Positions 13,467 to 59,843 of a DNA stretch of 64,000 nucleotides are shown in pieces. Numbering within the stretch: position 1 is the first letter of the stretch; each line of letters opens with the position of its first letter. The notes beneath the pieces were generated by a model. That model did no database searches. It was not told the DNA's origin and saw nothing but the letters and a program-made list of their open reading frames with translations. The translations under genes were made by a program, and so were the position numbers. Location of the stretch: assembly GCA_963931925.1 (NCBI GenBank), contig OZ007570.1:46232487-46296486 (forward strand). The letters run 5' to 3'. This DNA comes from Onchidella celtica (taxonomy: Eukaryota; Mollusca; Gastropoda; Systellommatophora; Onchidiidae).

Positions 13467-13621
13467 ATTATATCCACGTTTCCGAAAGACTGGTTCAGTA
13501 ATTTAGAGGGAGACTCCACTCTGCCACAGCTGGAAAACCTTTGCAGATACTTTGTCTCAGCTGCCAAAACGTTACACAAAGCCACAGCACTGGAGAAAGA
13601 CAGTGAAAGGCTGGAAGGAAG
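13467..13621 (+). CDS. PAXBP1: PAXBP1/GCFC2-like protein, exon 6 of 7
   Basis: After CATTACAG the exon reads IISTFPKDWFSNLEG, then LPQLENLCRYFVSAAKTLH. It matches the family CFPKQWFMNLKG and ISQLENFCRYLVHLADT segments. It ends with AG before a GTAAGC donor (13622). The first base of the exon at 18759 completes an arginine codon. The following 5.1-kb intron contains the nested SINE and LINE. Confidence 0.93.
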
Positions 13622-13643
13622 GTAAGCATAAGGCTGGAATTAT

Positions 13644-13714
13644 TTGTAATTCACTAATTGTATACTACTTTAATCCCATTTGGGAAATTTGCCTTTGTGT
13701 TATTGCACCCGGTT
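13644..13714 (-). mobile_element. 3' end of a tRNA-derived SINE split by a LINE
   Basis: Read on the - strand this is the 3' tail of the SINE whose body is at 17946-18289. It matches the tail of the SINE copy at 59075-59505 (shared phrases GGCAAATTTCCCAA and ATTAAAG). The outer edge is the 9-bp repeat TGGAATTAT (13635-13643), found again at 18290-18298. The inner edge is the 15-bp LINE target duplication TTATTGCACCCGGTT (13700-13714). Confidence 0.75.
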
Positions 13715-13942
13715 TGGTATCAGTGGTCGTGCACCTGTCGGTGCAAACGGCCAGGGCGGAGGAGGTTTCATCTAACCCAACGGCCAATGCTAGGGCACAA
13801 TGTGACCCTCAGTACTTGAGTCCTTCACATTGGCCCCCAGTAGCGGTGTGGTCATAGGCTTGTTTGCCTAAATCACAGACGAAGAATTGAGCAAACTTCC
13901 CGGACGCAGCTTCGAAGCTGGCGGCAGCAGGCCAGTGGTTGA

Positions 13943-14542
13943 TTGATAGGGCAGATGGCAATATACCGTCACTCTGGCCTGGATATCGTGACACAGAGCA
14001 TCCACCAGTATTGGTGTTCTTTGGTTTGGGTCTTTCACCCTAGTCAGTTGGGACTGCGAGGCTGTGGAGTAGCCTACAGGCAGCCGGTCAGGCAATATGA
14101 CTGTCCCTCTGGCATCCTCCTGCACCTGGATACATTTCCAGTCGTCTTGACCCTGTCTTGCCACTTGGATAAGTTGTGTCCAGGCGAGAGAGTGAGTCTG
14201 ATGTTTGCGCAGCTCTTTCTCACTAAAAACAAATTCTTTGCGCCAGTCTTAACACTCACCTCGTCTTCTTTCATCTTTGTCTCGTCTTCTTTCCTCTCAA
14301 AATTCCAACGGCGATGGGCGAGTGCGGTGGCAGCAGGTTTGGATAGACTGGAAGCTGTTAGCACAGACCTACACGTTGGTGGCTGTGGGCTATGGTCGCT
14401 TCATCGTCGATTGAAGTGGAGGCGTGGGGAGGCAGCACCCACAGTAGCTGAGCAGCCTTATTTAAGGATAGCACTGCTCACCTCAACTGAGGAAGGGGCT
14501 AGAAAAGGTGCCCTAAAGAAAGCCCACTTCACATCACCCTGA
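13943..14542 (+). other. Open frame in LINE leader overlapping the RT frame
   Basis: A 199-codon open frame runs through the LINE leader. Its first in-frame ATG is at 13955. It ends at 14542, after the RT frame has already opened (14503), in a different frame. The protein is not recognised and lacks an obvious ORF1 domain (no RRM, no CCHC knuckle, no coiled coil). It could be a chance opening in a G+C-richer leader. It is listed because the RT frame has no ATG before its endonuclease domain. Confidence 0.3.
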
Positions 14543-14559
14543 CTGGTATACCGCGACCA

Positions 14560-17500
14560 GTGGGGATCCCTTTTTGCGGTCGAAACAAAAAGAAATTCAG
14601 CTTACTCAGGCTAGGAGCCTGGAATATACGCACACTACAGGACAACTCAAACAACCCGGAAAGACGCACTGCACTTATTGCCATTGAGCTCAGCAGGTAC
14701 AACCTGGACATAGTGGCACTCAGTGAGACCAGACTCCCTGATAGTGGCCAACTCAAAGAGCTCAGTGGTGGATACACCTTCTTCTGGAAAGGCAAGGGTG
14801 CAGTCGAACCGAGACAGCATGGTGTTGGGTTTGCAATTAAAAATGACCTTGTCAGAAACTTGCAGTCCATGCCAATTGAAATAAATGACAGGCTAATGAC
14901 ACTCAGGATCCCAGTTGGGAAAAGCCAGTCAGCCACCCTCATTAGCGCATATGCGCCCACCATGACAAACCCAGATGAAGCCAAAGACAAGTTCTATTCT
15001 GATCTAGAATCTGTCATATGCTCTGTCCCGGCAGCTGATAAGCTGATTCTCTTGGGGGACTTCAATGCTAGGGTTGGCTCCGAAATCTCAGCGTGGCCAA
15101 ATGTTTTGGGCCCTCATGGAGTTGGTTCATGCAATAACAATGGGTTGCGCTTACTTACTTTGTGCGCTGAATTTGGCCTGTTCATTACCAACACAAATTT
15201 TAGTCTCCCCGTGAGAAACAGAACGTCATGGATGCATCCCCGCTCAAAGCATTGGCATCTCATAGACTATGTCATTGTGAGGAAGACTGACAGAAAGGAT
15301 GTCCTTGTAACAAAGGCGATGTGTGGTGCCGAGTGTGGAACTGACCACAGACTCATTGTTTGCAAGCTCAGACTAACATTGAGGCGCAATAGACGCCCTC
15401 AAGGGAAAGCGCCACCTAAACGCCTAAATGTTTCAAAACTCTGCTCAGCTGAGAAACAGAGCGAGCTCTCATCAGAACTCTCCTCAAAATTGGATTGCGT
15501 GACTTTTGACCCTGAGAACATTGAACAGAGCTGGACTGACCTAAATACGACTGTACACTCTTGTGCCAGCAGCACAGTTGGTTTTCCTGTCCGCAAGCAC
15601 CAGGACTGGTTCAATGGTAATGATAATGAAATCAAAGTGCTCATCAAAGAAAAAAATAGTCTCATCCAAGCTCACTGCAGTGACCCCTCTTCCACAGCAA
15701 AAGCTGATGCACTGCGTGCATGTAAGGGTGTACTCCAGAAGAAGCGGAGGAAAATGAAAAATGACTGGCTTGAAGAGCGAGTAAGAGAAACTCAGAAATA
15801 TGCCGACACAAACAACACTAGAAAGTTCTTTGAGAGCCTCCGAGCTGTGTTTGGACCATCCCGCTCTGGCACTACGCCACTTCTTGCGTCAGATGGTTCA
15901 ACACGCATTGTTGAATTGAATGCCATAATTCAGCGTTGGGCAGAACATTTCGGAGGTGTGCTAAATCGGCCATCAAATATAAATACTGAGTCCATTGACC
16001 GCCTCCCTCAGACTCCTATTAATGCAGCTCTTGCCAAGCCATTCACAGCAAATGAGACCCGAACTGCCACAAATCAGATGTCCTTTAACAAATCACCAGG
16101 CGTGGATTCAATTCCTGCTGAGGTGTATGCTTTCGGTGGAGAAAAGCTTATTGAAAGGTTAACCGAGTTGTTCAATCATATGTTGAAAGCAGGGAAGCTG
16201 CCACAGGACTTCAAAGATGCTTCAATCATCCATCTGTACAAAAACAAAGGGGACAGCCAAGTCTGTGACAACCATCGGGGAATCTTTCTACTTTCAATTG
16301 CTGGCAAAATATTGGCAAGAATGCTTCTGAATCGCCTTCTTGATCACCTCTCGTCAAATGACTTGCTTCCCGAGAGCCAATGTGGCTTTCATAAAGAGAG
16401 GGGAACGGCGGATATGATTTTTGCTGCCAGACAGATTCAGGAAAAATGCATGGAACAAAATAAAGCGCTGTATATCACATTTGTTGACTTCACAAAAGCA
16501 TTTGACACAGTGTGTCGTAAAGGTCTCTGGAAAATCTTGGCGAAGTTTGGGTGTCCACCCGAATTCATCACAATAGTGCGCCAGTTTCATGATGGCATGC
16601 AAGCTGCAGTCAAAAGCAACGGCAGTGTTTCAGAGCCCTTTGCTGTCACAAATGGGGTAAAACAGGGTTGTGTCTTAGCCCCAACTCTGTTCAGCATCAT
16701 GTTCTCTGCAATGCTACAAGAAGCCTTTAGCTCTCCTCCTCAAGGGGTAAGCATCAAGTATCGAACTGATGGCAGTCTATTCAACCTCAGGAGACTCCAG
16801 GCAAAAACCAAAACCAAAAGTACTCAAGTCTGTGACCTACTATTTGCTGATGATTGTGCACTTCTGGCACACGATGAGGATAGCATGCAAAACTGTGTTG
16901 ATAAGTTCTCTAGTGCCTGTGACAACTTTGGCCTCACAATAAGCACAAAGAAGACGGAAGTGCTCCATCAGCCTACTCCAGACGACAAGTATCCTGTGAC
17001 CCCAAATATCAAAGTCCATGACAGTCTTCTGAAGGTGTCGGAGAACTTCACCTATCTTGGCAGTACACTGTCTTCCACGGCTCGTGTTGATACTGAAATT
17101 CTCTCAAGAATCAGCAAAGCCAGCTCTGCATTTGGCAGGCTTCGAAAGAGAGTGTGGGATGTTGCCGGCATTCGCACAGACACTAAGCTGAAAGTGTACA
17201 ATGCTGTGGTCCTTCCCACTCTACTCTATGGGGCTGAAACCTGGACAGTGTACCAATCGCATGCCAGAAAGCTAAATCACTTTCATCTGGCCTGCCTTAG
17301 AAAGATCCTAAGGATCAAATGGCAGGATAAAATTCCAGACACTGAGGTCCTCAATCGTGCCAAGGAATTGAGCATCTTCTGCCACCTGAAAAAAATTCAG
17401 CTACGTTGGGCAGGACATGTTGTCAGAATGCCCGACTCCAGACTCCCTAAGCAAATCTTCTTCTCTGAGCTCTCCAATGGAACGAGGAATGTTGGGGCCC

Positions 17501-17787
17501 CAAAGAGACGTTACAAAGACACTCTCAAGCAATCACTGAAGGCCTTTGCCATTGATGTGAGTGAGTGGGAAAAGCTCTCGCTTGATCGTGCAAATTGGAG
17601 GGCGGCCCTTACCAGAGGCAGCAAAGCATGGGAAGCTGACAGAGTCCAGCAGGCTATCAAAAATAGAGAACGGCACAAGAAAAGGCCCAGTGGTACTGAA
17701 CCAACGGAGCACTCTTGTCATTTATGCGGAAGGGTCTGCAGGGCAAAAGTAGGACTTATCAGTCACATGAGAAGCCATAAGTCATGA
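14560..17787 (+). CDS. LINE endonuclease/reverse transcriptase polyprotein, 1075 codons, intact
   Basis: An uninterrupted frame encodes the replication protein of the LINE. An APE-type endonuclease occupies residues ~15-275: LGAWNIRTL near the start, ETRLP, GDFN at 166-169 and GTDH at 260-263, the usual metal and catalytic positions. A linker follows. The reverse transcriptase covers ~480-830, with SIIHLYKNKG, the GVKQGCVLAPTLF block and the catalytic FADD at 762-765. The C-terminus has the LRWAGHVVRM region and ends in a C2H2 finger with ligands C1053, C1056, H1069 and H1073. The frame is open back to 14503 but has no ATG there; the codon at 14560 is GTG and the first in-frame ATG is at about residue 105, inside the endonuclease. 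Translation may therefore start at a non-ATG codon or by frameshift or reinitiation, or the start may be lost. All catalytic motifs seen are intact. Confidence 0.93.
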   Translation: MGIPFCGRNKKKFSLLRLGAWNIRTLQDNSNNPERRTALIAIELSRYNLDIVALSETRLPDSGQLKELSGGYTFFWKGKGAVEPRQHGVGFAIKNDLVRNLQSMPIEINDRLMTLRIPVGKSQSATLISAYAPTMTNPDEAKDKFYSDLESVICSVPAADKLILLGDFNARVGSEISAWPNVLGPHGVGSCNNNGLRLLTLCAEFGLFITNTNFSLPVRNRTSWMHPRSKHWHLIDYVIVRKTDRKDVLVTKAMCGAECGTDHRLIVCKLRLTLRRNRRPQGKAPPKRLNVSKLCSAEKQSELSSELSSKLDCVTFDPENIEQSWTDLNTTVHSCASSTVGFPVRKHQDWFNGNDNEIKVLIKEKNSLIQAHCSDPSSTAKADALRACKGVLQKKRRKMKNDWLEERVRETQKYADTNNTRKFFESLRAVFGPSRSGTTPLLASDGSTRIVELNAIIQRWAEHFGGVLNRPSNINTESIDRLPQTPINAALAKPFTANETRTATNQMSFNKSPGVDSIPAEVYAFGGEKLIERLTELFNHMLKAGKLPQDFKDASIIHLYKNKGDSQVCDNHRGIFLLSIAGKILARMLLNRLLDHLSSNDLLPESQCGFHKERGTADMIFAARQIQEKCMEQNKALYITFVDFTKAFDTVCRKGLWKILAKFGCPPEFITIVRQFHDGMQAAVKSNGSVSEPFAVTNGVKQGCVLAPTLFSIMFSAMLQEAFSSPPQGVSIKYRTDGSLFNLRRLQAKTKTKSTQVCDLLFADDCALLAHDEDSMQNCVDKFSSACDNFGLTISTKKTEVLHQPTPDDKYPVTPNIKVHDSLLKVSENFTYLGSTLSSTARVDTEILSRISKASSAFGRLRKRVWDVAGIRTDTKLKVYNAVVLPTLLYGAETWTVYQSHARKLNHFHLACLRKILRIKWQDKIPDTEVLNRAKELSIFCHLKKIQLRWAGHVVRMPDSRLPKQIFFSELSNGTRNVGAPKRRYKDTLKQSLKAFAIDVSEWEKLSLDRANWRAALTRGSKAWEADRVQQAIKNRERHKKRPSGTEPTEHSCHLCGRVCRAKVGLISHMRSHKS

Positions 17788-17945
17788 AAGAACAGTCTTT
17801 CCATTCTGTCCTCTGTGTCCTTTAGTTCTCTTTATTGTCCATGTGTTGAAATTCTCAACAATTTCTGTTCTTTATTCCTCTGGTGTTGTTAAGGTCATCA
17901 TCATACCTGATGGACGAACTATTATTATTATTATTGCACCCGGTT

Positions 17946-18289
17946 ACAACTGGAGCAGGCACGTTGTCGTCACAGTGCAGCGGCAGTTGGCGGTTTTTTG
18001 GGGGGGGGGGGGGTGGTAGGGATGAATTTTATTTGATTTTGGCCAGGCAACCGCCTACTCTTTTTGATTTCCAACTACCAAGGTATCTTTAAGGTGCACA
18101 GCATGCATACAGGCCCTCCGAATTTTTTGTTCTTGTTCGAGAAGACTAGGTATTTGATCCTACCCCCCAATAGGATCAGGGACAAGAAAATGTGAGAAAA
18201 ATCCCAAACTTCCAACATGCCTGCACCAGCCGGGTTTTAAACCTGGTACCCTTGGTATGAGAGGCGAGCACCTTGCCTCTAGACCACCT
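17946..18289 (-). mobile_element. tRNA-derived SINE copy 1, body and head
   Basis: On the - strand this copy begins with a tRNA-like head: an A-box-like GTGGTCTAGAGG and a degraded B box, GGTTTAAAACC. The core shared by four copies in this window follows (CTGTCCCTGATCCTATT..., then GGATCAAATACC, GGAGGGCC, AAAGATACCTTGG). A C-run (G-run on +, 17998-18013) precedes the tail. The 3' tail continues at 13644-13714 beyond the LINE. The SINE is flanked by TGGAATTAT at 13635-13643 and 18290-18298. Unsplit length is about 415 bp. Confidence 0.82.
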
Positions 18290-18298
18290 TGGAATTAT

Positions 18299-18758
18299 AA
18301 GAGAGGTTGCAGAAAGTTGAAGTCCTAGACAATCTGCCAAAGATGGTGGCAGCAAATTATGCTATTTCAATGAAAGTCATCGAAGTTTCAGATACATGCT
18401 GGAATAACTTAAATATACTTGTAGGAAGAAGACAAGGCTGTTTCATTGGGATCATGAGCAAACTACAAGAGCACCAAAGTTGACATATCAGGTGTTGATC
18501 TGAGAGGATCAATTGGTGTAAGAAATACGTTTGTACATAATCTACACAGGTTTCATGTTATATGATTTAAGAGAAGTTGTTTTACTGCCATTACGATAAA
18601 GTAGGTTTTAAGTAACTCTGAGTGATGTAGCTCATAAGATTTTTAAAACATTCTGGTGCATCTGCTTTGAGCAAAACATAGTTTTCTATATTTGTTTCTT
18701 TAACATGAATTTCAGACATTGGCTTATACTGGCACCTTTGTCCTGTTTTTGTTTACAG
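18299..18758. other. End of last PAXBP1 intron
   Basis: Intron sequence between the SINE target duplication and the acceptor GTTTACAG at 18751-18758. No coding or mobile signal is recognised. Confidence 0.6.
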
Positions 18759-18855
18759 AGAACTGGTGAAGCAGATCAGCAAACACCTTGTCAACATTCA
18801 TGCCATGGACCATGCTATGTCTCTTGCTAATGAATTTAGTTTCAAGATCTCCTGA
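18759..18855 (+). CDS. PAXBP1: PAXBP1/GCFC2-like protein, terminal exon 7 with stop codon
   Basis: The first base completes the arginine codon begun at 13620-13621. The exon then reads ELVKQISKHLVNIHAMDHAM and SLANEFSFKIS before TGA at 18853-18855. It matches the family C-terminus (IVKLLASVRALDHAMSVASD in the human protein), but the tail is a little shorter. The acceptor TGTTTACAG is good. The seven exons give about 270 residues, the C-terminal third of a protein usually near 800-900 residues. Confidence 0.9.
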
Positions 18856-26785: not shown

Positions 26786-27845
26786 CTGTAGATAGAGTTG
26801 AAAGTAAAACTTGGGTCAATTTTACATCTTATTTTGCGGCAAGAACACCAAGAATGTAAAGACATTGTTTATTGGAAAATTCGTTGAATGAAATGTCATG
26901 TTTGTTCAGGAGAGAGGGAGAGAGAGAGAGAGAGATATGGGAGGGGCATGTTATTATGAGCAAGCACGTCAATACTAGTTGGGTTAAATATACACTGCAT
27001 CATACAATTGCAAGAACGAAAGGGCAAACCACAGACACGACACGAAACTACACATTGTATTAAAACGGACATAAACATTTTGTTTCTCCATGTACCACTT
27101 TAATTCTGACAACATGAGGCATGTATATGTAGTTGCTGGGTCTAAACAAAAAAGAGGGATATGTTTGTTATACACGTAATAATATGTTGGGTATAGAGGA
27201 TGTTAAATGCATTTAGTCTAAAAGAAACAATACTGAAAGATCAATACTTAAATCACTGTAAAAATTTATCGTATTACTTCAAACAAGAGCTACTCTCTGG
27301 GTGTTCAAGCATTAGCTAACATACACGTTAAAACACAACGGGCCTTAACAGTTTGGGCCATGTGACTAAACTGGGTTTTGTTTGCACCATGAAGTTTTGG
27401 GAAAGCGCACGGGTTAGGGTCAGGGCTACGTTCAAATCAATGGCCGAAGTAATACATGTGGTTTCACTGCGGAAATGGAAGCGGTAACGTATTTGGGGAA
27501 GTTGGCCCAAAAAAAAAAAAAACTACCAGTAATTCTGGCAGCATGGCCAAAATAGCCTTTACCAGTTTGAAATCATGTACTCAGCTTTAAGACTGGTGGC
27601 GCAGTGAGTCAAGTCTGCCTTTTGCGTCTGTTTTGACCCAGTGGGCGAGGTTTCTCTTTCACTCATCTGACGCGCAGTTTTGACGCGCCCGAACCGACGA
27701 GAGAGATTGGTTTCGGCCTGGCCAGGTCCGTTTAACTCCTTAGATCACATCTCACACTAAAACAAGGACAAAACAGACTTGGCTCAGTGAGCCACCCGCC
27801 TAAGACGACGGAGACTGAAGCAACAGCATAAAACATACTGATTAC
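26786..27845 (-). other. Intron of the GT92 gene
   Basis: A 1060-base intron between GTAATC (27845) and CTACAG. It holds a (GA)n run at 26911-26935, an A-run near 27509-27522 and the family C inverted-repeat element at 27595-27796. No exon is seen inside it. Confidence 0.75.
27595..27796 (-). mobile_element. Short inverted-repeat element, family C, copy 1 (complete)
   Basis: The ends are GGTGGCGCAGTGAGTCAAGT and, on the opposite strand, GGTGGCTCACTGAGCCAAGT, an inverted repeat of about 23 bp with three differences. The body is 202 bp, non-coding, with AGTGTGAGATGTGA and AAGAGAAACCTCGCCCACTG phrases. Related copies lie at 58892-59074 and 60078-60172. Structure suggests a MITE. It lies within 50 bases of the GT92 exon 1 donor. 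Confidence 0.78.
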
Positions 27846-29195
27846 CTTGCTATAGCCCTGAGATCTGGCAGTAAGTTGCGGAGTGAGAGGATTATTGTCG
27901 TACGAAGTCCTGATTCCAGGGTCATAGAAAGCACTTTGGAAGGAGAATCCACAACGATCTTTGGTGAGCATGGAGGAGAAGGCTTCCCTCCAAGTCCTGG
28001 CGGCGGTGTGAGGCACAATAAATTCGTCCAGGTCATTGAAGGAGACCAGATCATGGTGAGGCATGGACCTATATAGACAGTCATTGTTGGCCAGAAGCTG
28101 GCCATGGTACCAGATGTCCGAGTCCACCTCAGGCGGAAGTTTCCACGGCAGCACTGTGGCAATGTTCCTGTTTACATAGTAGTCTAGAGCTACTGAGGCG
28201 TGCATTGTCAAGCTGTGATTATAGAAATAGAAATGATCCGCGCCTAGAATCCGTGAAAGCTCAATGAACTCGATCAATCTATGGACAGATATAGACCCAA
28301 ACAAAGGGGAAACGCAAATGGCGAAAGACAGGGAAGGTTGTGAAGAAGTGGAATTTGCATTTCTGACAAATGCGTTTGGGGATTTCTCCTCCTGGTTAAC
28401 TGTCAAAGGCACGCTTGGGGAATTTGTGTTCATTTTATTATACATTATTGAATATAGAGAACTACGTGGGTATGAATCTAAAAACGCTAATTTGTGTTTG
28501 GGCGGGGCTATACTTAATACCGGCATTTCTACTTTGGGTCCGTATTTTGTCAGAGATATCACCAACGAAGTCATGCTTTTAATGTTAACATAGTCAGGTA
28601 TTCGGCACGAGTAAATGAATCCACCAAACAGCTTTTCATGATTCTCACAGAGCTGATACTCCTCCGATTTCCTTGGCTCGTCCCCAGGCGTGTCGTTGAA
28701 GTGGCAATAGATCAAGAGCGTCGATGATTTCTGAGACATGAGAGTTAATATTCTGACAAAACTCTGCTCTTTCCTACTGTCCAGGAAGATCGAGTACACG
28801 AATGACTCCTTGCCGATGGAAACAAAATCTCCGGCGTATCCTTTGTGGAGTTCCACGTCAATCACCGGTTCAGATAAAGGCGAGGGTTGTTGAAACTGGA
28901 CCTTGATTCTCCTGGGCCTGGCCGTTCGAAAATCGACTCCTGCACTGGAGATGTTCTTCATTTGTCCCTTGATGAGTCGATTAGACGAGTAGTTTTTGTG
29001 GAAGGAGAATGGTTCTTGTTTGGCATGAAACGTTGGCTCCGGGAAAATCAATGAGAAAGATTCTTCCTCTTTCGGTCGTGGCTCGGTCATTTCTAGAGTG
29101 GCCAGACATAGCAAGATCATGAGGAAGTAACAGAACAACATAAACGTCAGTAACTTCCGATACACGAATCGTCTCAAACATACACAGCAAAACAT
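27846..29195 (-). CDS. Family-92 glycosyltransferase, exon 1 (residues 1-450)
   Basis: The first ATG gives a type II membrane protein: a short basic cytoplasmic start (residues 1-14), a hydrophobic anchor at ~15-34 (LLTFMLFCYFLMILLC), then a luminal stem and catalytic domain. Family features of GT92/DUF23 appear in order: CVSPLFGSI near residue 293, HRLIEFIELSRILGADHFYF, then SFNDLDEFIVP with D388, D390 and E391 as the likely metal/nucleotide-binding acids, then CGFSFQSAFY. The exon ends at K450 before a GTAATC donor, and the next exon completes the fold, giving 536 residues, a normal length. Known GT92 enzymes such as nematode GALT-1 add galactose to core fucose of N-glycans in the Golgi. 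The acceptor of this one cannot be told from sequence. Confidence 0.92.
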
Positions 29196-32100
29196 AATAT
29201 AGTAGATTTGTAGGTGATCACTTCCAACTTACTGACACCGCTTTTTGAGCGTCAAGGGCCTCACACAAACTTCCCGCATCGACTGTTCTGATTTACACAT
29301 GGTCTTTTAATGTCTGTCACTGCCAGTGTTTGTTCTCGTACACGGAGGTTTCATTGTGCCCCGTCTGTTGTTATTAAATTCAGCTGGCCGAAAATATCTC
29401 AAATTACCAATTGTCTTCGGTTTCATCAGCAAAGAATATTACAGCCAAAATGCAAACAAGGCAGCATCTGCCCCACACCTCATTTGAATTGTTTCCTTCC
29501 ACTGAACATACCTCTGGGATCTTACTTGAAGTAAAGTTACAAACAATCTATTATGTCAGATTGTTAGTAAGGGCAGCATACACAACCAGTGGGTTCGTGG
29601 AAGCACTTTGGACTTTGAGATAGAGCATGCATAGAGCCAAACTCTGGCTCACCCCTCTTGGCCTCTATATCCTGCCCATTACTCCCGAAACCAAGAAAGC
29701 ATGTTTATGTTATTGTCATTAAGCGCATTAGCAATTAATTTCATGCTGTTCTGACAGTAACTTTATTAGTTTCATGGTTATTACTAAACTCTTGAATTAT
29801 CAGCATTCTGAAGGTGGTCAATAATCTGAAGCCTTACATATTGACGGTGTCCACATAATTAGTCACTTTGAATGGGCGGAGTGCATAATGACCAGTCCTT
29901 TCCTTTTCTCTTGAGACATAATTGCTCAAAATTATGACAATCGAGAAATGATTGCCTGGTTTTGACTAAGCCTCTGAGATTAGTTATTCACCAATCCTTA
30001 TGCGATACAAGCGATCGTGAATGACTAGTCTATAGTCTAAACATGTCTTTATTTTGATCCTTTGGTGATAAAGTTCTTCCTGTGTTTCAAATTCTTTCCA
30101 CTGGTTCGTCGATTGTCTGGAGACAAGTTTGTCAAAAATGTTTCCCAGTGGGTGATCAATATCCGTGTCTTTCTAAATCAGCAATTTCACAAGTATTGGA
30201 TCCATTTTTCGATTTTAACACGAACTTCTACTTGCTGATGAATTGTTTTTTACTTCCTGTCTGTGATGATTCAGCTCATGTCAGTTCTTGGGTGCTTTGT
30301 GTGGATTCTCATTACCCTGTGCAATTTTTCACATGGCCTTGCTATATCATCTCCACATTCGCGCTCTTATTCCTGGCAAAGATATGCGGTTATTATACTG
30401 TTGCATGATAGTCAAAGGTAATTCCGCAGTTAGTCAGTTGGTTAGTTGTTTGTCAGTATGACAACGTAACAAAGTCTTCACTTTCCCTGCACGAACCTCG
30501 ATCTCTAAGCGAGTTCAGCAAACAGTTCACAATGTCTTATGTCATATCGATGTATCTACAGCGCTGGTTTCACGGCTTGAATCCATTCGTGATCTTATTC
30601 ATTGTGGCACCCGGAGTATTGGCGTAATATGGGCACAGTCACCTGAAAGAAATAGACAAAATCACAATTAATGTTTTGACTTTGAATTTGGGTAGAACGG
30701 CGCTTCGGCAGGATAACGGCCACTTTGCGCCTTCCACCGTCTGTTTAGGTACTTTATTTATGTTTGGTATTCAGAGCTTCACTAATCTAAATTTCACAAA
30801 TAGAATTCAATAGTTCCGTATAAATTTTATGACAAATTAATGACATAAATCTTGAATATAGAGCAAAATAATCATTATCATAGTGAAGTTCAGGAAAGAA
30901 TTATGCCATGGTCACCTTATCTCTGTAATCGCTGAGCAAGAAGCTCTGGTATGCGGGAATTATTGAACGTGTCACCTTTTCACTTCTTTTTAACCAGTGC
31001 TTCGTAATTTGTCACTCAGAATTGATTTGAGGGCTAGTTTCTTGTGTGCCATATAGTCAACATATAGTCTATGTGCTTGAACACATGTACTAAATTGTGA
31101 ATGAACACAGAAAAAAAATACAGAAAAAAATGTGGACAAGTACATTGTGCAATAATGTAGATCTAAGCCTTTCCTATCGGCCAGATCTAGATCCAGATCA
31201 GTAGATGATCTGAGATTTAAATCGTTGCTTTTTTTTTTTTTTTTTGCCTGACATAATTATTTCATGTAGACGCCTAACCATTTTTTTGGATAAAATTAAT
31301 GATTATTGAACACAATGGTTGTAATATTTTCGGTTTAACCAGCATTGCTAGACCGAGAACTATCGCAGACTTTCAGCTCTTTTCTTTTCTTCTTGAACCG
31401 CTAGATCTAGATCTATAGTCAATGCACTAGTTGCGGTCAGCATGTCGGTGCGGTCAATATTTGTTTTTCCATACAACTTCATTTACCGGTGTTTTTGTGA
31501 CTAATCCACGTTTTGTGACATTCTTATCAAGACATCACAACATCACATAGAATATGACTGCTGTCTTAGCTTGTATTTTGCCTTGGATAACTTTCCCAAA
31601 TTTTGTTTCCCCACAACTTCCATCTTGAGTTCAAAGGTAAATATGTGACCCTACAGTTTTCTCCATTTAGTAGTCTTGTGTAAGCTCACAAAAGTGCTCT
31701 GAACACTCTACTGTGGGTGGATTTTCATTGAAAATATGTTTTCTGGGGATTGTGAGCTTGATTATGCACATAATGGCATTGACTGCACTGACATGTTATA
31801 TTCATCTGACACTCTGCATGAGGTGCAGTCACTGGTAATTGCAGTGTGAAATCCATGTTGTGTTTGCATCAACTGGGATCACTAGCACCATTATTATTTA
31901 TTAGATAACATGATGTATTCAGAACAAGAGTTCAAAAGAGCCACTGCACACCAGTTAATAGTAAACAACTGACTTTAGGCCTAATGAGAAACAAAGAATA
32001 ATATTGTGGTAAAATCCAAATACATTTAAGGCTTTATTTTAAGGCATTTTGCAACTTGATCAAAGACTAGGTCTAGTAAGGCAAAATATCAGCATGAGGA

Positions 32101-46557: not shown

Positions 46558-47590
46558 GAATAATAATAATAAATAGAATTTCTATAGCGCATTTCTAATA
46601 AAATTATTACTCAATGCGCTGTACATTGCATCAATAATTCATGCATTCACTTTCAAATCTCATACTGAAACACGCACTCTCATCCATACAAACTTTCAGT
46701 TTCACACACATAGACGCTCTTAGTCATATAGCAATAGCTTATATAATCAATTATAACATCAAAGTACAGAATAGTATTTTGAAAAGTTAACAGTTTCGGA
46801 TGAAAAGGTGATGTTTTACACTTTTCTTAAAGCTTTCAAGATTCGGTGAGTCACGAATGTTCAAGAGTATCTGGTTCCAGACAAAAGGTCCGAAATAATT
46901 GAAGGATCTATGGCCTATAGTTTTATAGATTTTAGATGGGATTCTTAAGATTGTTTTGTCACTTGATGATCTTAGTGGACGAGATGGTGTATAGACGTGT
47001 AAAGAATTTTTGAGATAGCTGGGTGCGGTGTTATTTAAACATTTGAAGCAAAAAACAGCAATTTTGTATGTAATTCTTTCTGTTATAGGAAGCCAGTGCA
47101 GTTCTTTTAACAAAGGCATAACGTGGTCAGCTTGTTTTTTCTTGGTAATCAATTTGGCTGCGTTGTTTTGAATGACTTGAATTTTAGACAGTTTATCTGA
47201 TGTTGTTCCAGCAAGAAGAGAATTGCAATAAACTATTCGAGATAAAATGAGTGAAGTAACTAAAGTTTTGGTAATAGCTTCTGTGAGGAAATTTCGAACT
47301 CTGCTGATGTTTCTTAGTTGGAAACGTGCATTTCTGCAAATATTATTTACTTGGCATGTGAAAGTCATATCAGAATAAAAAAGAACGCCTAGATTTTTTA
47401 TGCACGAAGATGATTGTATGACATGTCTGTTAATGTTCAACTGGATGTTTGGTAGATCACTTATCTTAGCAACATAAGGGTTCGTACACAACATGACTTC
47501 AGTTTTAGCTTCATTAAGTTTTAATCTATTGCTGTTCATCCATTCTTTTACTTTGATGATACAATTGTTGAATCCATGCGAATGCTATTG
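46558..47590 (-). mobile_element. CR1/Jockey-like LINE, 3' fragment
   Basis: On the - strand a 250-codon frame (47539-46787) covers the end of the reverse transcriptase and its C-terminal domain: LNEAKTEVMLCTNP, CIKNLGVLFYSDMTF, YCNSLLAGTTSDKLSKIQ, LLKELHWLPITERITYK, YTPSRPLRSSSD. The catalytic YADD is upstream and missing, so the copy is 5'-truncated near 47590. The 3' UTR ends in GCGCTATAGAAATTC and an (ATT)n tail (46558-46575), like the relative at 52735-54066. The frame itself has no stop. Confidence 0.88.
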
Positions 47591-52735: not shown

Positions 52736-54066
52736 TGCCTAATAATAATAATAATAATATATTGCATTTATATAGCGCCCAACCCCGTCGATGACAAGCT
52801 CTGGGCGCTTTAACAAACTCTTACACACACACACACACACGCATACACAAAAGAAATTCAAAAATATTTACTATTGTTGCTGCCGAAAAACACCTAGCCT
52901 AGTTTGTCTGAAAGAAATGGGTCTTCAGATGGCGTTTGAAAGAACCAATGTCATTAATTTCCCTGGTTGTCTTTGGAAGAGTGTTCCAGATGGTAGGGCC
53001 AAGAAATGAAAAGGACTTTTCTCCTACAGTGGACAGATTCATTTTAGGTACTTTCAATTTTGTAGTGTCAGATGATGATCTTAGTTGACGAGATGGAACA
53101 TAGTAATCAGTTAAATCAACTAGGTACGATGGAGCAGTATTATTGACACATTTGTGACAAATGGATGACAATTTGTACATTATTCTTTTCTCGACTGGCA
53201 GCCAGTGCAAACTCTGCAGAAGTGGCAGTGCTGAATCTCTTTTCTTTTTCTTCAAAACAAGTCTCGCTGCATTGTTTTGAGCAATTTGGAGTTTTCTAAT
53301 ATTTTTTTGTGAAATTCCAGCCAAAAGGGAGTTGCAATAGTCAAGCTTTGAAAGTACAAAAGAATTTACTAAAACAGCCGCAGTTTCAGTTGAAATAAGA
53401 TGTCTGATTTTACCAATTTTCCAGATTTCCATGTATAGAATACGAATGAGGTGACTAACCTGAGATGACATAGAAAGATTTGAATCAATGTAAACCCCTA
53501 GGTTTTTTACTTTTTTTGAAATTTCTATTGAATTAGTGCCAATTATCATCTCAGTTCTGTCCACTTCTTGCAGAACCCGCTCACGGCCTAATAAAATAAC
53601 CTCAGTTTTATCCTCATTTAGTGCCAGTTTGTTTTGGTTCATCCAGCTTTTAATTTCTGTTATACAGTTTCCAGCCTGCTGCAGAAGGCTGTCAACATCG
53701 CATGGCAAGGCAGAACTGTAGAGCTGGGTATCATCAGCAGAGAAATGATATTGTAAATTAAATTTCTTTATTTCATGTACAAGTGGAATAGTATAGATAG
53801 TAAACAAAATAGGTCCAAGCACTGAGCCTTGTGGTACGCCATACTGAAGCGCATAAGAAAAAGATCTTATTTTGTTGGTTACAACAAATTGGTGGCGATT
53901 TGACAGGTAAGATTCGACCCATTTAAGGGCGACCCCTCTGATTCCAAACGATGTTTCTAGCCTTCTGAGCAGGATTTCGTGATCGATGGTGTCGAACGCT
54001 GCTGATAGATCCAACAAATTTAGCAGAGTAATATTTCCAGAATCTGCCTTTACTAATATGTCATTC
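52735..54066 (-). mobile_element. CR1/Jockey-like LINE, 5'-truncated copy with open RT frame
   Basis: On the - strand a continuous frame from about 54068 to 52899 covers the middle and end of the reverse transcriptase: LLDLSAAFDTIDHEILL, YGVPQGSVLGPILF, then SADDTQLYSS with the catalytic DD (the usual YADD reads SADD), LNEDKTEVILLGRE, VKNLGVYIDSNLSM, YCNSLLAGISQKNIRKLQ and YYVPSRQLRSSSDTTKL. The endonuclease half is missing. The 3' end is AGCGCTATATAAATG-like followed by (ATT)n at 52740-52760. It sits between CCTT/TACC and CTAC repeat arrays, so it appears to have inserted into a tetranucleotide tract. Confidence 0.9.
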
Positions 54067-54420
54067 ATATGCCTACCCACCTACCTACCTACCAATCTTC
54101 TTACCTGCATAACAAGCTACCTACCTACTTACCCAACTATCCACCTGTCTGTCTGCCAGCTTGTCTCCATGTCCACCTCCCTCCCTACCTCCTTATCTGC
54201 ATATCTCCCTCCCTCCCTGATTAACTACCCACCTGCCTGTCTGCCTATGGACCTATCTACTACCTACCTACTTACCTGCCTGCCTACCTACCTACCTACC
54301 TACCTACTTACCCACCTACCTACCTACTACCCATATCTATCCGTCCACCATATCCTCCTACCTGTATTCCTACTTACCTACCTACCTGCCTGCCTGTCTA
54401 CCTGCCTATCTACCACTTGT
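54067..54420. repeat. (CTAC)n-type microsatellite
   Basis: About 350 bases of CCTA/CTAC/CTGC units, degenerate in the middle. The tyrosine/leucine/threonine/proline-rich frame across it is an artefact. It resumes the TACC motif seen just left of the LINE. Confidence 0.95.
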
Positions 54421-59074: not shown

Positions 59075-59505
59075 GACACGGTGATCTAGAAGCAAGATGC
59101 ACGCATCTCATGCCGAAGGTGCAGGGTTCGAATCCCAATCGGTGCAGGCATGTTGGAATTTGGAGATTTTTCTCATATTTACCTGTCCCTGATCCTATGG
59201 TAGGTAGGATCGAGTACTTAGTCTTCTCGGATAAGGACGAAAAACTCGGAGGGCCCGTGTGCACGTTGCACACGTTAATGATACATTGGCAGTAGAAATC
59301 GGGAGAGGAGCAAGCCGAACAGGCCGCTAGCCGGCCAAAATTAAATAAATTTATCCCTACCACTCTCCCCCCCCAAAAAAAAACCCAGCCGACCAGCGCT
59401 GCACTGTGGCGACGACATGTCTGCTTCAGTTATAACTGGGCTGCAGTGACACTGGGGCAAATTTCCCAAGTGCAATTAAAGAAGTATACAGAATACAAAT
59501 TACAA
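59075..59505 (+). mobile_element. tRNA-derived SINE copy 4, most complete copy
   Basis: The head has an A-box-like CGGTGATCTAGAAGC and a perfect B box GGTTCGAATCC (59125-59135), as needed for RNA polymerase III. The core follows: CCTGATCCTATGGTAGGTAG, GGATCGAGTACTTAGTCTTC, GGAGGGCCCGTGTGCACGTT. Then come a C-run (59370-59379) and tail type A with GTTATAACTGGGCTGCA, GGCAAATTTCCCAAG and CAATTAAAGAAGTATAC. This is the reference for the family in this window. Confidence 0.88.
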
Positions 59506-59843
59506 AATATAAAAAGAAAACAGTCTTGACATAGTAAATGTTATTTTCATTGCACTGTCGTTTGCGCTGGTGTTGGATTTGAAACAATCAATGCTGGCAT
59601 TACCTCATAGTGTGTTGAGGGCCCTTATTATGGAATCTGATGAACACAAAACATGAGGCAAAAACCAAGTTTCAGGGAAGTTCCATGTTAAAACGGAGAA
59701 AACGAGCAAACTGCGGCAACGGAAACGTCAAAAATCCACCAAGTAGTAAAGAGAAAGAATGTTTTCATGTGTACGGAAATGGCGTTCCAGTACACAAGAA
59801 ACTGTTCTTTCTAGTTCACTACTTTAACGTTTTGGGTGTTTCT
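59506..59843. other. Intergenic sequence left of the VNTR
   Basis: It contains a single inverted piece of the VNTR unit: TTTTCATGTGTACGGAAAT at about 59762-59780 is the reverse complement of the unit's middle. No gene is recognised. Confidence 0.55.

Follow-up and report, generated by a model that had tools for sequence, protein, structure and literature searches.

Order of insertion at a LINE nested in a SINE within the final intron of a PAXBP1 homologue, and the missing ATG of its second open reading frame

The window analysed here, a stretch of 64,000 nucleotides (G000:C4:46232487-46296486) from a genome of 1.14 Gb in 43 contigs, holds one mobile element inserted into another within an intron, and raises the question in which order these layers came together, and how the long second reading frame of the innermost one, which offers no ATG ahead of its first endonuclease motifs, might be translated. 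The host gene is a homologue of PAXBP1. When the two exons bordering the intron are joined and translated, they match residues 828-908 of the PAXBP1 chain 8ro2_PX (E 4.4e-18), and both the LINE and the SINE lie within this last intron. The gene and the elements show the genome to be that of an animal, perhaps a mollusc. The features that concern the nesting are as follows, in window coordinates:

13467 to 13621, plus strand: coding exon of the PAXBP1 homologue preceding the intron (phmmer match to 8ro2_PX residues 828-869, E 3.8e-9; splice borders read in the sequence)
13635 to 13643, unstranded: left copy of the SINE target-site duplication, TGGAATTAT (sequence)
13644 to 13714, minus strand: 3' part of the SINE, tail side (alignment to 59077-59506)
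13700 to 13714, unstranded: left copy of the LINE target-site duplication, TTATTGCACCCGGTT (sequence)
13715 to 17930, plus strand: LINE copy, 5' leader short by about 71 nt, (TTA)n 3' tail (compared with 20 genomic copies)
17931 to 17945, unstranded: right copy of the LINE target-site duplication, TTATTGCACCCGGTT (sequence)
17946 to 18289, minus strand: 5' part of the SINE, tRNA-like head with box A-like TGGTCTAGAGG and box B-like GGTTTAAAACC (alignment, box matches)
18290 to 18298, unstranded: right copy of the SINE target-site duplication, TGGAATTAT (sequence)
18759 to 18855, plus strand: coding exon of the PAXBP1 homologue following the intron, stop TGA at 18853-18855 (splice borders read in the sequence)
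59077 to 59506, plus strand: another copy of the SINE, free of interruption, serving as the reference (alignment)

Elsewhere in the window, an open frame of 498 codons at 27735-29228 on the minus strand encodes a family 92 glycosyltransferase (PF01697, E 2e-30).

The 9-bp duplication that the initial annotation had reported around the SINE halves is present, with TGGAATTAT at 13635-13643 and again at 18290-18298. Since the window contains 55 families of repeats of at least 9 bp (20 of them listed), a repeat of this length, with a per-base match chance of about 5e-6, would not convince by itself, but it coincides with both boundaries of the SINE. Joined together, 13635-13714 and 17946-18298 align as the reverse complement to 59077-59506 with 75.5% identity over 433 columns (E 5e-80), and the alignment crosses the LINE junction unbroken. 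Removal of the LINE restores the SINE as had been proposed; the match, first described for the tail, extends over nearly the whole element. The SINE is a minus-strand element and thus antisense to the gene; its head lies near 18289 and its tail near 13644. It shows the features of a tRNA-derived SINE, i.e. box A- and box B-like matches to the Pol III consensus in the head, many dispersed copies and the 9-bp duplication. ARAGORN found no tRNA in the window. A genome search yielded 6,978 first-look candidates; among the best 40, which were scored, one is the window SINE, and the remaining 39 show 82-86% identity to it, a figure that, like those for the LINE below, derives from best-scoring copies and is biased low in divergence, so that the true spread of the LINE family may be larger. 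Four of the best-scoring copies lie close to one another on a single contig, perhaps as products of local duplication, and two further SINE fragments are found elsewhere in the window.

The LINE has a length of 4,216 bp and is flanked by the perfect 15-bp duplication claimed for it, TTATTGCACCCGGTT being exact at 13700-13714 and 17931-17945 (per-base match chance about 2e-9 at fixed register). This repeat is not common at unrelated sites: it occurs five times in 1.14 Gb, two of these occurrences being the flanks of this LINE and the other three (L002, L003 and L006) lying outside SINE matches, and a control read backwards occurs once. As the (TTA)n tail of the LINE and the target, which starts with TTATT, share bases, tail and duplication run into each other at the exact left boundary of the latter.

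Near-identical copies of the LINE, which the initial annotation had proposed to look for, are indeed present. A search with 1,146 bases of the 3' part returned 719 candidates, and in the best 40, which were scored and of which one is the window copy, the other 39 are 99-100% identical and distributed over many contigs. For the family comparison we used the window LINE and 20 of these 39. The mean pairwise difference was 0.67% (210 pairs), that between the window LINE and the others 0.84%, and the window LINE carries 17 private substitutions in its 4,216 bases. A degenerate pattern in which one codon was required to differ from that of the window found four matches, 98.6-99.4% identical to the window LINE, and none of these was a diverged relative suited to a selection test; note that the pattern is narrow and that such relatives may exist elsewhere. 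Judged by these identities, the LINE family is young.

The ends of the copies are informative as well. The same leader is found upstream of the first base of the window LINE in 7 of the 20 copies, an eighth (L038) having most of it, and reaches 71 nt beyond that base in the three copies measured. Since full-length copies carry this leader, the window LINE has lost about 71 nt at its 5' end. A further difference is a single base missing at LINE position 73, which is present in all 10 copies covering this position. L055 has only the inner part of the 71-nt leader, L039 begins at LINE position 4 and eight copies begin between positions 631 and 2971, while the 5' ends of L044 and L046 lie outside the compared stretch. 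A flank repeat of at least 9 bp was detected in 8 of 17 copies, the window included, versus 2 of 272 mismatched control pairs, and the remaining 9 of the 17 are without one; this test left out L038, L044, L046 and L055, in which one end lacked an anchor or was out of view. Among the eight, L039 is doubtful by virtue of its TTA-rich flank, and in L043, L047, L048 and L051 a gap of 6-17 bases separates the repeat from the anchored 5' junction. Individual copies show further peculiarities: L043 has flank filler at its 5' junction, and several hundred extra bases are inserted within L044. L046 is interrupted near LINE positions 241-247 by about 426 bp of SINE-related sequence (L046:128-553) with a partial head, possibly a later insertion or a chimera. 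It was considered as a clean case of a SINE inserted into the LINE and rejected as such, as its head is partial and no clear duplication is seen. The earlier suggestion of a possibly active family finds support at the level of the family, by its near-identical copies on many contigs and by the flank repeats, but not for the window copy, with its missing leader, its 1-nt leader deletion and the lack of an AUG before the motifs WN and SETR.

With the nesting, the alignment across the junction and the relative ages of the elements in agreement, the proposed order of gene, then SINE, then LINE holds. LINE copies are 99-100% identical and the SINE relatives 14-18% away, so that the LINE is clearly the younger insertion, and this age difference supports the order independently of the nesting. 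We are highly confident of a history in which the last intron of the PAXBP1 homologue first received, in antisense orientation, a tRNA-derived SINE that is now old, and in which this SINE became, much later, the target of a LINE from a young multi-copy family. The second event would have proceeded by target-primed reverse transcription; we infer that the target was nicked, that the (TTA)n tail, which shares bases with the TTATT target, served for priming, and that the 5' end was truncated by about 71 nt, with the 15-bp duplication left behind. That the nesting is an artefact of assembly or haplotype is highly improbable, for while the data come from a single assembly, the duplication at the LINE ends is exact, the tail is present, the SINE continues on either side and an equivalent end structure recurs at other loci. 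Such nesting is ordinary genome history and its general point is small, but the locus provides a clean, datable record of two transposition waves, an old one of the SINE and a very recent burst of the LINE.

The coding capacity of the LINE resides mainly in one long frame:

14503 to 17787, plus strand: ORF2, with endonuclease, reverse transcriptase and C-terminal C2H2 finger (PF03372, E 9.4e-15; PF00078, E 6.9e-35)

This frame is open as the initial annotation had stated, and its length is 1,094 codons from stop to stop (14503-17784), the 1,075 codons given before being counted from a GTG at 14560. The endonuclease, FADD and C2H2 motifs noted earlier are all present: WNIRT, SETR, GDFNAR, HWHLIDY, DHR and FADD are in place, and a finger CX2CX12HX3H starts at residue 1072, although its zf-C2H2 score of 17.8 bits remains below the cut-off of 25.2. 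An RNase H family was found neither with the whole ORF2 frame at E 0.001 nor with residues 781-1094 at E 10. With an AP-like endonuclease and a reverse transcriptase in one frame the element is an APE-type LINE, i.e. a non-LTR retrotransposon, and its family shows the hallmarks of this type in target-site duplications, 5' truncation at varied points and a simple 3' tail. Searches among viral contigs, phages and contigs of GTDB yielded no relatives of the LINE protein. An Alicyclobacillus plasmid record (L001, NZ_CP104070.1 17756-24303) contains an unannotated match to a LINE-like reverse transcriptase, 26.3% identical over query residues 469-1018; no long frame underlies the match, and it was set aside as probable eukaryotic contamination. 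The window itself holds a reverse-transcriptase remnant at 52902-54080 on the minus strand (RVT_1, E 1.8e-22) and a second, weak one at 46790-47584 on the same strand (E 0.018).

In 9 of the 13 compared copies spanning it, the ORF2 frame is open over 1,090-1,094 codons; it is broken in L044, L045, L046 and L051. Variants common to at least two copies are synonymous in 9 of 15 cases versus 29% expected (binomial 0.012), and the 146 single-copy variants comprise 52 synonymous ones (binomial 0.047), 88 that change a residue and 6 stops. From these few events, selection on the source copies of the LINE is suggested.

The frame nevertheless lacks an obvious start. In the window no in-frame ATG occurs until residue 123, past the endonuclease motifs WN and SETR, and the same residue is the first ATG in 9 of the 10 copies mapped, the frame of L045 being broken ahead of it and unreadable; L058 agrees with the window LINE. 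This reading covered the window and 11 copies and left out L057, L059 and L060, which are reversed in their loci, as well as L044, L046 and L053. Damage in the window copy was rejected as a cause, for other copies with open frames share the absence. Because 9 of the 13 copies spanning ORF2 keep the frame open, the absence of the ATG looks like a trait of the family as far as it was seen. That a family should keep its frames open and yet offer no AUG is the part of these findings that could matter, if only as a small puzzle.

A candidate solution lies at the 5' end of ORF2, where a second frame terminates:

13943 to 14542, plus strand: ORF1-like frame of 199 codons, putatively coding, first ATG at 13955, stop TGA at 14540-14542 (open-frame list)
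14539 to 14542, plus strand: CUGA, a CTG in the frame of ORF2 overlapping the stop TGA of the ORF1-like frame (context ATCACC[CTG]A)

The context of this CTG is, by the Kozak rules, the best near-cognate one in the stretch, and the CUGA stretch is exact in 12 of the 13 compared copies that reach it, L051 being altered just beyond. The preferred and most likely of several readings is that the endonuclease and reverse transcriptase frame would be translated without an AUG, from the CUG that overlaps the upstream stop, perhaps by coupled reinitiation. We rate a CUG start of any kind as plausible, if slightly short of an even chance, and remain doubtful of the coupled form, in which ribosomes that terminate after the 199-codon frame would reinitiate at CUGA to make the protein. 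This step is weakened by the ORF1-like frame, which contains no Pfam family reaching its cut-off, has a length that was reached by chance in 16-27 of 5,000 resamples and bears no mark of selection (synonymous are 6 of 25 single-copy variants and 0 of 1 shared variant, with about 30% expected; one of the single-copy variants is a stop). It is weakened also by the RNA directly downstream of CUGA, whose structure does not reach significance (z -0.7 and -1.1). Compared with shuffles, the 101 bases preceding CUGA (window 14440-14540) have slightly more structure (z -1.8), while z was +1.2 to +1.9 for three control stretches taken from ORF2.

Two alternatives dispense with the CUG. A spliced or differently started transcript of the LINE could supply the AUG, in line with an unspliced frame that offers no ATG ahead of the endonuclease motifs and with a leader as long as about 860 nt (71 plus 788). 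Still, none of the 10 copies whose sequence includes the leader from position 4 of the LINE, or from further upstream, lacks a leader block, as a spliced one would, and although spliced copies might be rare, we consider this explanation unlikely. A -1 ribosomal frameshift out of the 199-codon frame appears less likely still. The ORF1-like frame and ORF2 have 37 nt in common and stand in the -1 register, an arrangement that suits a frameshift and is the same in the window and in 9 of the 10 copies mapped (ORF2 is broken near its start in L045, and L051 is interrupted further on), but the overlap contains no canonical slippery heptamer of the type X XXY YYZ, and both the insignificant downstream structure and the putative coding status of the upstream frame count against this route as they do against coupling. 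A limited literature search on AUG-less translation of LINEs brought up no CUG start in the excerpts it returned. If true, a CUG start coupled to the upstream stop would add a mode of translation to those of animal LINEs.

Among known systems, the reverse transcriptase core resembles those of L1 ORF2p and R2 in sequence (8c8j, 1.2e-28; 8sxt, 1.8e-28; R2 9nl2, 5.9e-14), with the difference that the best stretch to the L1 entries spans residues 490-738 of the ORF2 frame only. The SINE, with its tRNA-like head, its long body and thousands of first-look candidates, is like tRNA-derived SINEs of molluscs and other animals and like Nin-SINE, compared here by its description only, for which an excerpt of PMC11121367 describes box A and B in limpets. 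For SART1 of the silkworm, a stop-start coupling is cited with UAAUG in the title of a reference, and an excerpt of PMC5972666 places structure downstream of the stop-restart site. In the present LINE, too, the stop of the upstream frame overlaps the candidate start of ORF2; the overlap however is CUGA, the candidate codon is CUG and not AUG, and the downstream structure is not significant.

The architecture of the LINE fits the Vingi/Ingi type, a placement by architecture alone and not by a tree of reverse transcriptases: it combines an APE-like endonuclease, a reverse transcriptase and a C-terminal C2H2 finger, and no RNase H was found in it. A C-terminal C2H2 finger is characteristic of Vingi/Ingi, and Vingi is said, reportedly by Kojima et al. 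in 2011, to be without RNase H. An HDV-like 5' ribozyme is reported for the L1Tc/ingi clade in an excerpt of PMC4035085. The HDV family is not among the three weak Rfam matches in L037 150-1150 (E up to 10) or the two in window 13600-18320, where Rfam may miss divergent ribozymes. As far as excerpts of the two sources go, Repbase lists both the Vingi and the Ingi clade (PMC5753468), and Ingi elements are frequent in several gastropods (PMC11203168).
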